Positions 18,271 through 31,315 of a DNA stretch of 33,212 nt are shown here, piece after piece. This stretch comes from Acidobacteriota bacterium (GTDB lineage: Bacteria; Acidobacteriota; Thermoanaerobaculia; Thermoanaerobaculales; Sulfomarinibacteraceae), in NCBI GenBank assembly GCA_024641545.1, contig JAHECW010000043.1, positions 1 to 33,212 on the forward strand, written 5' to 3'. The stretch's first letter is position 1, and each line of letters opens with the position of its first letter. Position numbers and translations under genes: made by a program. The notes beneath the pieces are model-generated. The model searched no databases. It saw nothing but the letters and a program-made list of their open reading frames with translations, and was not told the DNA's origin.

Positions 18271-20361
18271 ATGGTAATATTGAGACGCGTTCTACGCTCT
18301 CTTGAAAACAGGCGAAACCGGTGGTTTGCGATCGCGGTGTTGTGCGCGGCGGTCATTGCGGGAGCGGGTGAAGCCACCGCCCAAGAAGCGGAAGAATACG
18401 AGCCCATCGACAGCTCGGTCTGCGGCGACTGCCATGACTCCAGCGACCACGGCTCGTCGTTCGAGATCGATCTCAAGAACTCGGTGCACGAAGGACTCGA
18501 CTGCCTCGACTGCCACGCCGACCGCGGTACCGCACCGCACCGGAAGCTCGAGGAGCCGTTCTACCCCGGCTGCCAGGGTTGCCGCACCTGCCACGAAGAG
18601 GCTTCCGGGGAATACATCTCGCACGGCCGCGCGAACCTCGGATCCTGCGAGGACATGCCGCACTGCTCGGACTGCCACGGCGCCCATGACATCCTGCCGT
18701 CAACCGCGCAACGGTCGTCGGTCCACCCCACCAACCTGCCGGCGACGTGCGGCAAGTGCCACGAGAACCTCGACATCACCACCAAGTACGACATCCTCAT
18801 CGACCACCCGATCCAAATCTACTCACGCTCGGTTCACGGCAAGGCCACCAAGGGCGGGGTGTATGTCGCCGCGAGCTGCAACGACTGCCACTCATCGGGC
18901 GGCAGCGCGCACAAGATCATGTCGCCGGGATCGCCGGACTCGAGCATCAACCACTTCAACATCCCGTCCACCTGCGGCAAGTGCCACAAGGGGATCGAGG
19001 CCGATTTCTGGGAGGGCATCCACGGCCAGTTGGTCGCCCGGGGTGAAACCGATGCACCGGTGTGCACCGACTGCCACGGTGAGCACGGCATCCTCTCGCC
19101 CGACGATCCTCTGTCGCCGGTCTCGGGCTCCAAGGTCGCCGAGATGACCTGCTCGCCATGCCACGAGTCGGCGGTGCTCAACGAGAAGTACGACATCAAG
19201 ACCGGCCGTCTGACAACCTTCATCGACTCCTACCACGGGCTCAAATCCAAGGCCGGCGACACCCACGTCGCCAACTGCGCCTCGTGTCACGGCGTGCACC
19301 GAATCCTGCCCAGCTCCGATCCGACCTCCACCGTCAACCCGGCCAACCTGCGGGCGACCTGCGGCGAGTGCCACCCCAATATCTCCGAGAAGATCGCCCT
19401 GACGCCGATCCACGGCTTCGGCGGCCAGGGCCTGCGCACGCCGGCTGCCGACGTGATCGAGAAGATCTACATCGTCGCGATCACGGTGATCATCGGTCTG
19501 ATGATCCTGCACTGGCTCATCGACCTCATCCGACACATGGTCAACATCACCTCGAGTCGTCCGCAGATTCTCCGCATGCACATCGACGAGGTCGTCCAAC
19601 ACGCACTGCTTGCGTTCACCTTCATCACGCTCACCGTTTCCGGGTTCGCTCTGCGCTATGACCAGGGATTCATGGCGCGCTTCTTTTTCGGTTGGGAGGG
19701 AGGCTTCCAGGTCCGCGGGATCGTCCACCGCGCGGCGGCCGTCGCATTCATGGGAACCACTCTCTGGCACATCATGTTCCTCTTTTCGCCGCGCGGGCGC
19801 CGGTTCGCCAAGAACATGCTGCCGATCCCGCGCGACTTCCAGTTCTTCCTCCAACGGATGCTCTACAACCTCGGCATGCGGCCGCGCTGGGAGTGCATCC
19901 AGCGTTTCAACTACGTGGAAAAAGCGGAGTACTGGGGGCTGGTCTGGGGCACCATAGTGATGGTCAGCACGGGACTCATGCTGTGGTTCGACAACTGGTT
20001 CATCCAGTTCCTCCCCAAGGGCGTCCTCGACATCGCGTTGGTCATCCACTTCTGGGAGGCCTGGCTCGCGGCGCTGACGATCTTTGTCTGGCATTTCTAC
20101 TCGGTGATCTTCCACCCCCACGTCTACCCCATGAACCCGAGCTGGATCACCGGTCACATGCCCGAGGACATGTACAAACACGAGCACCCGGGCTACTTCG
20201 AGGAGGCACGGCGCGAGACCGAGAAGGTCATCGAGAAGCGCATCGAACGGATGCGTCGCCACAACCAGGACCCCAACGTCGTCAGCGGGGTCGAGACCTC
20301 TCACCCGAGCGAACCGACGACCGGTGCCGGGACGCGAGAATCAAAGGGCGACGACCAGTGA
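18271..20361 (+). CDS. Eleven-haem c-type cytochrome fused to b-type membrane cytochrome (CbcL-like)
   Basis: The 696-aa product has an N-terminal signal or anchor (about 17-40, ending ATAQ). Its periplasmic domain has eleven CxxCH haem c sites between residues 51 and 368. After that come about five transmembrane helices (about 395-625) with histidines placed for haem b, for example VVQHALL, GIVHRAA, LWHIMF, VIHFWEA and FVWHFYSVIFHPH. This resembles the HydC/FdnI/cytochrome b561 type and the domain order of Geobacter CbcL, an inner-membrane menaquinol oxidase for extracellular electron transfer. The likely role is to take electrons from quinol and pass them to periplasmic acceptors; this is inference by architecture. 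The soluble C-terminus is cytoplasmic and highly charged. The ATG is chosen by GGAGG 8 nt upstream. It appears to be transcribed alone. Confidence 0.85.
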   Translation: MVILRRVLRSLENRRNRWFAIAVLCAAVIAGAGEATAQEAEEYEPIDSSVCGDCHDSSDHGSSFEIDLKNSVHEGLDCLDCHADRGTAPHRKLEEPFYPGCQGCRTCHEEASGEYISHGRANLGSCEDMPHCSDCHGAHDILPSTAQRSSVHPTNLPATCGKCHENLDITTKYDILIDHPIQIYSRSVHGKATKGGVYVAASCNDCHSSGGSAHKIMSPGSPDSSINHFNIPSTCGKCHKGIEADFWEGIHGQLVARGETDAPVCTDCHGEHGILSPDDPLSPVSGSKVAEMTCSPCHESAVLNEKYDIKTGRLTTFIDSYHGLKSKAGDTHVANCASCHGVHRILPSSDPTSTVNPANLRATCGECHPNISEKIALTPIHGFGGQGLRTPAADVIEKIYIVAITVIIGLMILHWLIDLIRHMVNITSSRPQILRMHIDEVVQHALLAFTFITLTVSGFALRYDQGFMARFFFGWEGGFQVRGIVHRAAAVAFMGTTLWHIMFLFSPRGRRFAKNMLPIPRDFQFFLQRMLYNLGMRPRWECIQRFNYVEKAEYWGLVWGTIVMVSTGLMLWFDNWFIQFLPKGVLDIALVIHFWEAWLAALTIFVWHFYSVIFHPHVYPMNPSWITGHMPEDMYKHEHPGYFEEARRETEKVIEKRIERMRRHNQDPNVVSGVETSHPSEPTTGAGTRESKGDDQ

Positions 20362-25795: not shown

Positions 25796-28700
25796 TCAGC
25801 GCTCGATCCCGATCTTCGCCAGCCGGTTCTGCCAGGTCAACGAGGCCAGAAGTTGACCATCGGGGAGAAGCGCCAGGACCGTAACCCCTTCCAGCCCGTC
25901 CCGTAGGAGCCGTGGAGGTTCGACACCGGCCGGATCGACGAGCCAGATCTCCCCGGGCGTCGGTGCGCTGGCCGCGAGCTCCCCGGAAGGGAGCATGGCG
26001 AGATACCCCTCCTGCTGGTCACCAGCGCTCCAACCGGGAACCTCGAGGCTGCGAACCACCGTCCCGTCGGTTGGATCGACGAGGGCGACGACCCCCTCGG
26101 ATGGAACCGCAACCGCGATCAATCCACCGGCCCAGGCGAGCCCGACGACCGGACCGGGAAGGATCGCAAGGCTCTCGGCGTGCCACTCCGGGGGCCGGCA
26201 GCGCATCAAACGCCGGTTGCCGGTGTCGGCGACCACGAGGCTCCCATCCGGCGCCCACAAGAGTCCTCGGGGCCCGTAGTAGTCGTTCTTGAGCACTTTG
26301 GTCGTGCCATCGGGCAGGAGCAGCTGTACCCGGCCGTTCCAGGTGTCGGCGACCGCGAGGGTGCCGTCGGCTGCGAGCGCGAGCCCGGACGGCTCGAGAA
26401 ACTCGCCCGGCCCCGAACCCTCGACCCCCTCGGTGTCCATACACAGCCCCTGTGCCGAATACCAGCGAAGGCGATGGTGTTGGGTGTCGGCGACGACAAA
26501 CCAGCCGTCGGGTGAGACCCCGAGTCCGCGAGGTTCGTCCAGCCCGCGCAGGGAGGTCCCGTCCGCCGGCTGCCAGGGCGAGGTGCAGGCGAGGCTCGAG
26601 GTTTCGAGGATGAGACCGTCATCGAGCACGAGCCACAGACGGGTCGAACTCCCTTCGGCCGCCGCCACCGATTCCAGGCCGTCAAAACCGCGCCGCCAGC
26701 GCAGGACGGCCCCCGCGCTCTTGTGCAGGCCGGTCGCGTCGAGCGCCCAGAGAACCGGCCCCTGCCACGCCAGGGCGCGGATGTCTTCGAGGGAGCCGTG
26801 AACCTGCATCTCCGATCCGTCGCGACCCACCCAAACCGTGCTGCCGTCGCTCCACGCGATTCCGGGACCTCGTGCAGCCGCAGCGCTGACGGCGGCCGGG
26901 GAGGTCTGTTGCCAACGGGTTCCTCCCAGGTGCTTCCACAACCCCGTCCCGCCCCAAGCCCAAACCTCGTCCGCCGCGGTCAGATTCTCGGCGCCCTCGA
27001 TCCGCCCCGCACCCGTCCAGGACGCTCCGGCTTCTCGACGGATCCACAGACCGCCGTCGCCGCAGACCGTCCACCTCTCCGGACCTCGACGCGCTACCGC
27101 GGTCGTCGGACTGCACGGTGGAGGATCGAGCACCGCAATCTTTTGGGCCATCAGATCGAGATCCACCATCGAGCCGTCGCGAAGAACCGCGGTCGCCCCG
27201 GACTCGTCGAGGGCGAGCGAGCGGACCACGTCGACGCTCCGCTCCGGGACCCTGCCGACGACCTCGATTCCCGCGGGCAGCTCGACGGTGGGCTTGAAGG
27301 GTGACTCGGTGGAGACGGTGTTCGGCAGCACTCGATAGAGGACCGCACCGTCGTGCCCGGCAAATCGCAGCAGCCCAGGAACACCGGCCAGCGGGTCGGG
27401 CCCCGGCAGGCCGTAGCCCTGCCGTTCGATGTCGGCGAGTACCACCCATGCCACCTGATACCGGTCGAGCACCGCCCTGCGGGCGTGGGGATTCGCTCCG
27501 GCGTAAAGCGTCTCCAGGTCGGCGAAACGGGCGGTGATCTCGAACTGGGACTGCCCGCGCTGCTTGAGGTGCCAGTCCCAACCGACGACGGTGGGTTGAC
27601 CGGTGTGCATGACGATCCGGGTGTACCGGTTGTACGAGATGCCGGCCGCCTCGGCCACCGCGTCGCCCGCCGCGGCGGCGCCCTGCAGCGCGCGCACCAG
27701 GAACCACGTCTGCGGCGCTTTTTCGGCGAGAAATGCCTGACCATCGAGGGTCGGGCGGGGAGAGATCATTCGGGGCTGGAGCCAACCCTGGGCGACCCCG
27801 AGCGGCAGATTGACCAACGCCACCATCTGCAACGGCAACCAGACCGCCACCAGCACTCTGCGCCGCCATCCACGCTCGCGCAACAGCATGGTTGCAAGAG
27901 CGATCGCGAGCAGGAGCCAGATCCCGTTGTAGATCTTGAAGACGGTGTTCATGCGATCGATGAGGGTGAATCGCTCACAGAACGCCACCGCCATCGTGGC
28001 GAGCGCGGCCAACGACCAGCCGAGACGCAGCAACCGATCCCGAGTGCGCACCGCGGCAACGAACAGGAGCGCGGTCACGGCGAGCGCCGCCGCCGCCGCT
28101 CCCGAACCGAAGCTCAGACCGGCGACGATCCCGACCGCCGCGGCGGGGATGACGATCCAGCCCCGCCGACCGATCGACACGACCCCAAGCACGGCGAGCG
28201 GCACGAGAAACACGCCGAAGTGACGGAGCAGCACCCACCACGGTGCGAAGTCCGCATCGGTGAAGAACAGACCGCGGCCGCCTCCCGCTCCCGCGCTGAT
28301 CCCTACGACCAGTTCGACGATGAACGGCGCGGCGGCGACGAGGCTCACCAAAGCGGCCGCGGTCAGCCTACCGAGACCGATCTCCGGCCGGCGCGACACC
28401 GCGATGGTGCCGAGACCCAGCGCCGCCGTGACAATGAAGAGATCCCATGGATTTGTCGCCACCAGGACCGCGACGCACAGACCGCAGAGAACCGCCGGCG
28501 GGATCCATCCCTTGCGATTCTCATCGGTGCAGAGCCAGCCCCAACCAAGCACCGTCAAGACAACCGGGAGGGCGATGAAATGGCCGTGCAGATCGGCGAA
28601 GATCGCCGTCCACAACGGGTACTCGTCGATGGCGAATCCCGGAATCACCCGCGACGTGGCCCACCACATGTCGAACCAACGGCCGGCGCGGCCGAGATCG

Positions 28701-31315
28701 AGCTCCCAGAGCCACTCGAGATTGCCGGAAAGCAACACCAGCAGTGGCAGCACGGCCGCGGCGAACCACCGACGACGGCGCGTCAGAAGGAGACCGAAAC
28801 CCGCCAGGACCCCAGCCCCGAGCGCGGGGATGGCCGCCGACATCAGGTTGTAGCCGACCCCGGTCGAGCACCCGGTCACGAGAATCGGGAAGGCCGCCAG
28901 GACCTCGCCGAAATAGTAGTAATGGAGGGACATCCCGGCCATCCAGGGCTCCATCGGAGGCCAGGAGGTCGACCGGACAAAACTGTTGAGGAAGGAGAAG
29001 TCCATCGGCTTCTCGCCCCAGTGGATCGCCGGGTTGAAGAGGCGAACCACCAGGAAGAGCAGACCCACCGCGACGACTGTCGCAACCACCCCGACGATGG
29101 CCCTTCGCCGTCGTTTCAGAATGCTCCATGCCTCCCGCCTCCGCTTCACCAGACCGAACCCGCCGGCGGCGATGACCACGATGAAGATCGACGAGGCGGC
29201 GGCGGCGCCGGTCGGCCAGAGGCCGAGCTCGCTGCCGAACCACATCACCCAGGCGGGGACGATCCAACCGGTAGCCAGGGCGAGGCCGATGCCCGCATCG
29301 GGCAACCGCTTCAACGTCGGCAGGAAGATCGTCCAGATCGCCAAACCCAACGCGCCGAAGACCGCCGCCCAGATTGCCAGATCCCACGCCTGGCGAATGC
29401 CGGTCGGCACCGGGTTGACGGCGGGAAGCGGTTCGACGAATCGATCTTCGAGGGCGCGAAAGTCCAGATCCTGGAGATACGGAAGCGGGCGCTGGACCCG
29501 TTCGGTCAGTTCTTCCGGCGAGACCTCCGCGGTCCGCCGGAAGATGACGACGCGCGGAAAATCATAGTTGACGAAGCTCTCATCGGCGAGCTGAACGGGC
29601 GCGAAGAGACCGAAGATCCGCGGTCCCCGGTCGACCCGCGCCACCGGAGTGAACCCGGCTTCGCCGGCGAGCAGCAGCCGGTAGAGCCGACCGGTGAGCG
29701 GGAACCGTTCCGGGTTCGCCAGCACCGTCCGCCGGACCCGGTTGGATGTCAGGACGACCCAGTCGGCGCGTGCGAGTTGGCCGCACCAACGAAGCGATTT
29801 GTCGGAATCATCGCGGAGGTCATACGACGGCAGATCGATCCGCTCGACCGGGCCGTCTTTCGGACGGAGATCGAGGGTCTCGTCCCAGTGCTCGTAGGCC
29901 ACCACCTGTTCGGCTTCGATCATCATGCCGAGCCAGCGGGCGGCGGTCCGGTGCGGATGGGGTTCGACGAAAGCCCAGACGAACGCGAGTCCCCACAGAA
30001 TCGTCCCGGCGGCCACCGCCGCGACCGCGAACCGGCGGCGCCGCCGGCGCAACCGCATCAGCCACCAGGCCGCCACCAGGGTCCCTGGCACGACCAGCGG
30101 TTCCCAGTAGCGCAGGTACTTGACCTGCAGGGTGCTGAGCCGGACCGCCATGGGAATCAGCCACGCGAGCAGGATCAACAGCAGGGTGAATCCGGGCGTC
30201 CAGCTGACGGCGAGCCACCGCCGCCAACGTTTGAGAATCCTGGTCGCACCCGCGCCGGAGCCGATAAGCACGGCCGCCGCCATCAACGGCCCGAGGCCCC
30301 AGAGCGCGAGCTCGTTGAGTGGATACAGGACCGGCAGAGTGCCGTGGTAGACCCGGACATACGGCAGATCGGCCTCGCCCATGACCATCGCCACCTGCTC
30401 ACCGACGCCGCGGAGGTACCCCGGGTTGAGTGCGACGCTGAAGAAGGCAGCGCCGCCGTCGCCGCCGACGCCCATGAGCCGGGCAAGCTGTTCTCCCGTG
30501 ACCATCGCCGCGAACACGCCGACGCCGAACAACGCCAACCTCGAAACGCCCTTCTGCGAACGGGCGACCTGGAGCGCCGCGGCGAGGACGACGACCGGCA
30601 CAAGAGCAGCGAACGGGAACCCGCCGTCGACAAAGGCCCAGGGCTGGCAGAACCAGAAGGCGGCGACGCCGACCGCGATCGCCACCGCACACAGCCGGAT
30701 CGCTTCGATCAGATCCTGCCGCCGCATGACGATCACCAGCGCGACTCCGAGAGGCGCGACCAGCGCGAGCGACGAGACCTTCACCGCCAGCGATGCGCCG
30801 ATGGCGGCGCCGGTCGCCGCTGCACTCAGATTGTCGCCTCGGGACGCAAACCAGAAGCACGCCGCCAGCGCCGCCACGACCCAGACCGCATGATGGCTTT
30901 CGACGGTCGCGAAGTGCGACTGTTGAAGATCGAGAGGAACCCAGGCGACCAGAAGAAGAAAGAGCTCGCCGGTGCGACGTCCCCAGACGCGGTGGGCGAG
31001 CATCCATCCGAGGAGGATCGCCAGCATCGATGCCGCAAGGGACAAGGCCCTGCCCCCGACGAGGAGGCTCCGGGAGTCGTCCCCGATCAAGAGGAGGCCG
31101 GTTACGGCTCGGACCGCCTGAAAATGGAGCGACCCATAGGCGTAGAAGCCGGGATCGGCAAACCAGTTCGTCGCCCGTTCCGAGACATAGCCGACCTGTC
31201 GCTCATCCGGGTGGGTCGATGAGGAACTCGTCCCGTAATCCCAGCCCTGAAGGACAAGGCGGAGGCCAAGCACGACGAGCAGGAGAACCCAGGTTCGCTT
31301 GCGCAGCATCACCAT
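25796..31315 (-). CDS. Giant membrane protein: ArnT/PMT-like GT-C half + DUF2298 (Chlor_Arch_YYY) half + NHL beta-propeller
   Basis: The product is about 1839 aa. Residues 1-~560 carry an N-terminal multi-helix membrane region whose first extracytoplasmic loop has HPDE (35-38), as in ArnT/PMT-type (GT39-like) glycosyltransferases that use lipid-linked sugars. Residues ~690-1340 match the DUF2298 family of archaea and Chloroflexi: PPMEPWMAGMSLHYYYFG (~788-805), FADLHGHFIALP (~906) and RMNTVFKIYNGIW (~1122). DUF2298 function is unknown. The last ~480 residues are beta-rich, with three clear NHL-type repeats (EPRGLGVSPDG, EPSGLALAADG, GPRGLLWAPDG; ~1590-1710). Inference: transfer or remodelling of sugars at the outer face of the membrane, with the propeller binding substrate. 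The start is uncertain; ATG at 31315 or 31309 directly before the first helix is chosen, but the frame is open to 31540. Confidence 0.85.
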   Translation of the reverse strand: MVMLRKRTWVLLLVVLGLRLVLQGWDYGTSSSSTHPDERQVGYVSERATNWFADPGFYAYGSLHFQAVRAVTGLLLIGDDSRSLLVGGRALSLAASMLAILLGWMLAHRVWGRRTGELFLLLVAWVPLDLQQSHFATVESHHAVWVVAALAACFWFASRGDNLSAAATGAAIGASLAVKVSSLALVAPLGVALVIVMRRQDLIEAIRLCAVAIAVGVAAFWFCQPWAFVDGGFPFAALVPVVVLAAALQVARSQKGVSRLALFGVGVFAAMVTGEQLARLMGVGGDGGAAFFSVALNPGYLRGVGEQVAMVMGEADLPYVRVYHGTLPVLYPLNELALWGLGPLMAAAVLIGSGAGATRILKRWRRWLAVSWTPGFTLLLILLAWLIPMAVRLSTLQVKYLRYWEPLVVPGTLVAAWWLMRLRRRRRRFAVAAVAAGTILWGLAFVWAFVEPHPHRTAARWLGMMIEAEQVVAYEHWDETLDLRPKDGPVERIDLPSYDLRDDSDKSLRWCGQLARADWVVLTSNRVRRTVLANPERFPLTGRLYRLLLAGEAGFTPVARVDRGPRIFGLFAPVQLADESFVNYDFPRVVIFRRTAEVSPEELTERVQRPLPYLQDLDFRALEDRFVEPLPAVNPVPTGIRQAWDLAIWAAVFGALGLAIWTIFLPTLKRLPDAGIGLALATGWIVPAWVMWFGSELGLWPTGAAAASSIFIVVIAAGGFGLVKRRREAWSILKRRRRAIVGVVATVVAVGLLFLVVRLFNPAIHWGEKPMDFSFLNSFVRSTSWPPMEPWMAGMSLHYYYFGEVLAAFPILVTGCSTGVGYNLMSAAIPALGAGVLAGFGLLLTRRRRWFAAAVLPLLVLLSGNLEWLWELDLGRAGRWFDMWWATSRVIPGFAIDEYPLWTAIFADLHGHFIALPVVLTVLGWGWLCTDENRKGWIPPAVLCGLCVAVLVATNPWDLFIVTAALGLGTIAVSRRPEIGLGRLTAAALVSLVAAAPFIVELVVGISAGAGGGRGLFFTDADFAPWWVLLRHFGVFLVPLAVLGVVSIGRRGWIVIPAAAVGIVAGLSFGSGAAAAALAVTALLFVAAVRTRDRLLRLGWSLAALATMAVAFCERFTLIDRMNTVFKIYNGIWLLLAIALATMLLRERGWRRRVLVAVWLPLQMVALVNLPLGVAQGWLQPRMISPRPTLDGQAFLAEKAPQTWFLVRALQGAAAAGDAVAEAAGISYNRYTRIVMHTGQPTVVGWDWHLKQRGQSQFEITARFADLETLYAGANPHARRAVLDRYQVAWVVLADIERQGYGLPGPDPLAGVPGLLRFAGHDGAVLYRVLPNTVSTESPFKPTVELPAGIEVVGRVPERSVDVVRSLALDESGATAVLRDGSMVDLDLMAQKIAVLDPPPCSPTTAVARRGPERWTVCGDGGLWIRREAGASWTGAGRIEGAENLTAADEVWAWGGTGLWKHLGGTRWQQTSPAAVSAAAARGPGIAWSDGSTVWVGRDGSEMQVHGSLEDIRALAWQGPVLWALDATGLHKSAGAVLRWRRGFDGLESVAAAEGSSTRLWLVLDDGLILETSSLACTSPWQPADGTSLRGLDEPRGLGVSPDGWFVVADTQHHRLRWYSAQGLCMDTEGVEGSGPGEFLEPSGLALAADGTLAVADTWNGRVQLLLPDGTTKVLKNDYYGPRGLLWAPDGSLVVADTGNRRLMRCRPPEWHAESLAILPGPVVGLAWAGGLIAVAVPSEGVVALVDPTDGTVVRSLEVPGWSAGDQQEGYLAMLPSGELAASAPTPGEIWLVDPAGVEPPRLLRDGLEGVTVLALLPDGQLLASLTWQNRLAKIGIER

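Follow-up and report, generated by a model that had tools for sequence, protein, structure and literature searches.

A probable tandem GT-C membrane glycosyltransferase joining a PMT/ArnT-like half, a DUF2298 half and an NHL propeller in Acidobacteriota

Three-component systems for extracytoplasmic glycosylation consist of a polyprenyl-phosphate-sugar synthase of the GT2 type, a flippase and a GT-C enzyme (PMC11127046). In the Pgf system of S. mutans, the GT2 protein PgfS and the PMT_2-family protein PgfM1 modify surface proteins (PMC5856776). In the archaeal oligosaccharyltransferase AfAglB, the metal is held by D47, D161 and H163 (PMC8342417). In the literature searched, we found no functional description of DUF2298, TIGR03662 or TIGR03663, nor any measurement of activity on a DUF2298 protein.

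The window analyzed here is the whole stretch of 33,212 nucleotides from an Acidobacteriota bacterium (contig JAHECW010000043.1). Its minus strand encodes a protein of 1839 aa, with the ATG at 31315 and the stop codon at 25796-25798. The first-pass annotation had described an uninterrupted frame of this length at 25796-31315, with its strand unstated, and we found the frame together with all of the motifs quoted for it: THPDER (residues 34-39), PPMEPWMAG...YYYFG (786-803), ADLHGHF (907-913) and RMNTVFK (1121-1127). The gene is laid out as follows.

25796..31315, minus strand: whole gene P0001, 1839 aa, with a GT-C half, a DUF2298 half predicted to be GT-C, a beta-rich domain and an NHL propeller; one ORF in relatives
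29921..31315, minus strand: first GT-C membrane core, PMT/ArnT-like, residues 1-465, from the model and from structure and profile matches
31199..31213, minus strand: HPDER, residues 35-39, in the first extracytoplasmic loop, from the alignment
29411..29920, minus strand: C-terminal soluble segment of the first half, residues 466-635, an alpha/beta region following the final helix, predicted to be extracytoplasmic
29144..29395, minus strand: three extra transmembrane helices, residues 641-724 (641-663, 676-696 and 704-724), with a positive-inside charge pattern
27908..29254, minus strand: Pfam DUF2298 match, residues 688-1136 (E 6e-67)
27776..29107, minus strand: predicted second GT-C membrane core (DUF2298), residues 737-1180 (model pLDDT 93.8, pTM 0.93)
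29000..29017, minus strand: GEKPMD, residues 767-772, immediately following GT-C helix 1 of this half (737-760), from the alignment
28913..28921, minus strand: YYY motif, residues 799-801, from the alignment
28580..28597, minus strand: ADLHGH, residues 907-912, opening the helix that occupies the TM4 position, from the alignment
27935..27958, minus strand: DRMNTVFK, residues 1120-1127, from the alignment
27326..27733, minus strand: soluble C-terminal domain of the second half, residues 1195-1330, AglB-like by its match to 3vu0
26546..27280, minus strand: W-rich conserved domain, residues 1346-1590, probably beta-propeller-like, from the alignment
25802..26545, minus strand: NHL propeller, residues 1591-1838, from Pfam NHL and the TRIM71 NHL structure 8j72

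A Pfam search of the window protein placed both DUF2298 (227.1 bits against a cut-off of 27.8, E 6e-67) and NHL (49.8 bits against 20, E 2.4e-13) above their cut-offs. TIGR03662 from NCBIfam spans residues 646-1329 with 331.2 bits against a cut-off of 300.25 (E 1.7e-98). These matches agree with two of the three parts assigned in the first-pass annotation, but the first half, assigned there to the PMT/ArnT type, stays below the PMT_2 cut-off in this protein (18.1 bits against 26.1). An overlapping plus-strand ORF at 27353-31222 was rejected as a gene; we regard it as a shadow frame of GC-rich coding DNA because tblastn with the minus-strand protein recovers the full-length product in relatives. 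The gene sits among housekeeping genes, and adjoining glycan genes are absent. Elsewhere in the window (18337-20358), a 674-aa ORF combines a multihaem cytochrome c with CXXCH motifs and a cytochrome b561-type membrane part.

The structure model of the first half (AF2, 32-sequence alignment, pLDDT 88.8) predicts a GT-C fold, and every strong PDB match of either half is a GT-C protein. The closest matches of the first half include ArnT 5f15 (VIA Z 27.8, rmsd 6.5 over 425), ALG12 (Z 27.1), AglB (Z 27.0) and Pmt 6p25 (Z 26.9, rmsd 3.6 over 383), with STT3 also among the best, and the structural match to ArnT and AglB extends to about residue 597-631. Profile matches to PMT1 (1.7e-5) and ArnT (2.6e-4) point the same way, so the earlier reading of this half as GT-C holds at the level of the predicted fold. 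PMT_2 is detected at E<=0.01 in 20 of the 32 aligned relatives (best 7.7e-17), and two tested whole relatives pass its cut-off. HPDER aligns to the PDE motif of ArnT 5ezm, with D37 and E38 in the place of that motif, and HPDE is invariant in the alignment wherever it is ungapped. Profile comparison related the first half to the Agl23 family TIGR03663 (98.0% over 347 columns, reversed control 0.2%) and to the STT3 family (97.2%, reversed control 6.5%). A direct search with TIGR03663 (cut-off 126.25 bits) gave no match at E<=1 in the window protein.

Our model of the DUF2298 half (AF2, 53-sequence alignment, pLDDT 93.8, pTM 0.93) likewise predicts a GT-C fold. All nine Foldseek matches at E<=0.001 were GT-C proteins, among them DPY19 (1.3e-7), AftA (5e-6) and STT3 (2e-5), and the earliest unrelated protein appeared at E 0.04 with a probability of 0.25. 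The 50 VIA matches listed for this half were GT-C proteins, GT-C-type subunits (for example PIG-U) or the AglB C-terminal domain; they include STT3 (Z 17.9, rmsd 7.3 over 462), ArnT (Z 15.9), AglB (Z 15.6), AftA (Z 14.3, rmsd 5.2 over 502 residues) and Pmt4 (Z 14.2, rmsd 4.2 over 345). Residues 1195-1330 match the lone C-terminal globular domain of AglB, 3vu0 (Z 10.6, rmsd 2.6 over 114).

The GT-C assignment of DUF2298 rests on this model because the sequence link of its membrane core did not rise above the reversed control. An hhalign comparison with the first half gave 92% and the reversed profile 50%; with the membrane cores alone the value fell to 1-3%, and we rejected both comparisons as profile proof of a GT-C core. 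The C-terminal domain compared with STT3 reached 93% (reversed 4%), or 28% for the domains alone (reversed 0.2%), a likeness that is no more than suggestive. Searching PDB profiles with the DUF2298 half yielded only triosephosphate isomerase matches at chance level (best E 0.033), and Pfam STT3 had no match at E<=1 in the window protein. The WWDYG motif is absent from the DUF2298 C-terminal domain, where GWDWH (1245-1249) stands at the aligned place. AglB-like STT3 proteins with a DHH motif were seen at four other loci from acidobacterial genomes (L083, L085, L087 and L088), and the one at L085 matches A. fulgidus AglB with E 2.7e-59. This suggests that oligosaccharyltransferases exist in Acidobacteriota.

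Alignment of 53 DUF2298 sequences, from fused and stand-alone proteins, revealed a set of residues that may form a second active site. E768, D772, P786, W791, Y799, R889, E898, P900, D908, H910, W957, N1123, T1124 and F1126 are invariant (53/53), and H912 is kept in 52 of the 53. Both halves carry conserved acidic residues after their first GT-C helix: D37/E38 follow helix 6-23 and E768/D772 directly follow helix 737-760. The first-pass annotation had asked whether two GT-C folds would each have an acidic catalytic pair; both folds are predicted here. D908-L-H910-G-H912 starts a helix at the TM4 place, the position of D161-H-H163 in AfAglB; the two coincide in fold position, and their residue register may differ. 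By analogy, the second site would bind metal via D908 and H910. On the extracytoplasmic side, DRMNTVFK starts a helix further along the chain and is a possible ligand of the lipid phosphate.

The positively charged loops of helices 641-663, 676-696 and 704-724 lie on the predicted inside. The first half is predicted to end outside, and these three extra helices would bring the chain back to the cytoplasmic side ahead of the second core. Because stand-alone DUF2298 proteins can be aligned across these extra helices too, they should have an external N-terminus, to which a GT-C enzyme would be easy to attach in topological terms. Since the propeller comes after the second extracytoplasmic domain, it should be outside as well; the extracytoplasmic location claimed for it earlier is thus supported by the predicted topology.

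The order of GT-C half, DUF2298 and NHL recurs in 21 distinct genomes of the alignment set, which fall into three family-level groups of the class (f1, f2 and f5). In four of the 21, a contig edge cuts the ORF and the DUF2298-NHL part is still present. Identity to the full-length window protein is 78% within the genus, 54-59% in other genera of the family and about 35% in other families; for the first half it ranges from 80% down to about 30%. Twelve additional GT-C/DUF2298 fusions lack the propeller; several of them belong to the window's own family, and one lies on a contig from Chloroflexi (L028). The fusion looks old and single, because stand-alone and GT-fused copies form two separate sets on the DUF2298 domain tree (one label change for the stand-alone set, support 95/77). 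The propeller requires two gains or losses on the same tree. No relative was found in the plasmid records searched. At L075:9947-15895, a 1982-aa ORF carries about 600 residues unmatched by the queries used, followed by a GT-C and DUF2298 fusion.

The NHL part spans about 250 residues (1590-1839), a length that fits a propeller of six blades, and matches the TRIM71 NHL structure 8j72 with E 1.6e-37. Within it we found three clear repeats, the number that had been noted from the sequence. Between DUF2298 and NHL lies a W-rich domain of 245 residues (1346-1590) that was not mentioned in the first-pass annotation. It was seen only in the window's family f1, and f2 and f5 have a linker of about 30 residues instead. 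Neither PDB profiles nor Pfam gave a match to this domain of the window protein; its W/G-rich pattern of about 40 residues looks like that of a second, divergent propeller. The NHL propeller is mobile, with Agl23-NHL proteins at L030, L031, L074, L076 and L082 and a fusion of the DUF2298 (YYY) protein to NHL at L074. One propeller type is common to Agl23, YYY-only and GT-YYY proteins. Agl23-NHL proteins of about 800 aa are encoded at L082:3765-6206 (G000:C38, in the window's own genome), L030:8788-11181 and L031:6400-8793.

We profiled the co-occurrence of DUF2298 and Agl23 in 247 acidobacterial genomes, counting matches over cut-off. DUF2298 was detected in 19 genomes and Agl23 (TIGR03663) in 53. 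Agl23 was present in 18 of the 19 DUF2298 genomes and in 35 of the 228 others (Fisher p 1e-12, or 4e-10 when the window's family is left out, both with kinship ignored). The one DUF2298 genome lacking Agl23 (G085) has a weak DUF2298 match of 79 residues. In 17 of the 19, Agl23 lies within a few kb of DUF2298 on the same contig, and the usual gene run is YYY, Agl23 and GT2. The GT2 is nearest to PgfS and to the undecaprenyl-phosphate Ara4FN transferase (ArnC), and scores below the PgfS cut-off. A GT-YYY fusion without the propeller sits inside such a run at L040 and L041. Three consecutive genes at L074:4037-13576 encode YYY-NHL (995 aa), YYY (918 aa) and Agl23-NHL (1452-aa ORF), which is an alternative packing of the same modules.

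The unusual length of the frame is the only reason to suspect an artefact, an assembly join or a frameshift of separate genes, and we consider such an origin extremely improbable. Independent assemblies share the order at 31-80% identity, internal stops are absent, and the single ORF is conserved in relatives, which refutes a frameshift join. Relatives ending before the propeller had been named as a sign of such a join; some do end there, but 21 genomes keep it, and none of the refuting signs listed in that annotation applies to the family as a whole. The first-pass annotation had also pictured a self-contained machine for cell-surface glycosylation, independent of any other membrane partner. 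The presence of all three modules in a single chain and the lack of neighboring glycan genes would fit that picture, which is nevertheless very unlikely to be right. A separate Agl23 gene accompanies DUF2298 almost everywhere, and a GT2 gene whose product would provide the lipid-linked sugar often does. In the window's genome the full set is spread over three places, with the fusion here, YYY and GT2 at G000:C22 and Agl23-NHL at G000:C38, and at L077 the triple fusion is head-to-head with a YYY-Agl23-GT2 run.

A GT-C-like fold need not mean a transferase, because the PMT-like Haloarcula protein HhAgl23 was shown to flip lipid-linked oligosaccharides in proteoliposomes and to complement a yeast rft1 deletion (PMC11182771). 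DUF2298 could accordingly keep the fold and act as a flippase, a scramblase or a partner of the first half or of Agl23 that handles the lipid carrier. The profile relation between the Agl23 family and the first half and the near-constant company of Agl23 and DUF2298 speak for this, but acidic and histidine residues that are invariant in 53 sequences at GT-C active-site positions would be unusual for a dead site, and the AglB-like C-terminal domain is retained. We regard a non-transferase role as unlikely. With a GT-C fold predicted for both halves, a transferase of lipid-linked sugars, as first suggested from the fusion, is now the best reading of DUF2298.

Our analyses thus favor a tandem GT-C membrane glycosyltransferase, which the protein probably is, built from PMT/ArnT-like and STT3/AglB-like units with one or two extracytoplasmic propellers. 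Points that speak against this reading are the weak sequence link of the DUF2298 membrane core to other GT-C profiles, the flipping activity of Agl23 and the housekeeping surroundings of the window gene. A cytoplasmic PgfS/ArnC-like GT2, such as that at G000:C22, would load polyprenyl phosphate with a sugar, and the lipid-linked sugar would be turned over to the outer leaflet, possibly aided by Agl23. Both GT-C sites would face the periplasm and move the sugar from the lipid carrier to a growing glycan or protein, with the propeller retaining the acceptor or a partner. With two sites available, the chain could attach two sugars successively; alternatively, one site could have a regulatory role. 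This proposed order of steps follows from comparison with three-component systems (PMC11127046), Pgf (PMC5856776) and the Haloarcula Agl22/Agl23 pair (PMC11182771), and we infer that both sites are active, as we do the donor, the acceptor and the role of the propeller. It is possible, if somewhat doubtful, that DUF2298 founds a new metal-dependent, STT3-like GT-C family of bacteria and archaea, working with Agl23 and a PgfS-like GT2 in a previously undescribed surface glycosylation system, with a two-site relay in the fusion on one acceptor held by the propeller.

Pfam gives DUF2298 no function, and the GT-C model, the invariant residues and the partnership with Agl23 and GT2 make it a testable candidate glycosyltransferase. 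DUF2298 is also present in the control genomes of Haloferax volcanii and Methanosarcina acetivorans, which brings it within reach of genetics in a laboratory archaeon. Two GT-C units in a single chain would offer a natural example of coupled transfer. The fold claim would be less new if the GT-C clan of Pfam already includes DUF2298.

Among described families, the stand-alone TIGR03662/DUF2298 (Chlor_Arch_YYY) proteins of about 700 aa are matched by the second half along its entire length and in all invariant residues, but the window copy sits between a PMT-like GT-C unit on its N-terminal side and an NHL propeller on its C-terminal side, and the fused copies form a tree lineage apart from the stand-alone paralogue. 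The DUF2298 half resembles STT3/AglB in its predicted GT-C core, its AglB-like C-terminal domain and a DxH at the TM4 position that may correspond to D161-x-H163 of AfAglB; it differs in lacking a Pfam STT3 match, in having GWDWH rather than WWDYG and in its three extra N-terminal helices. With PMT (GT39) and ArnT (GT83), the first half shares the predicted fold and a PDE-type motif, whereas the window protein falls under the PMT_2 cut-off and carries an additional GT-C unit and a propeller in the same chain. Agl23 (TIGR03663) shows a profile relation to the first half and is itself NHL-fused in places (L030, L082), but it has HHDE where the first half has HPDE, and the window protein has no TIGR03663 match. 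The Pgf system pairs a GT2 with PMT_2 membrane proteins, while DUF2298 and the propeller are undescribed there. The logic of GT2, flippase and GT-C is that of the three-component systems, with the differences that Agl23 would replace the GtrA- or MATE-type flippase and that two GT-C units share one chain.
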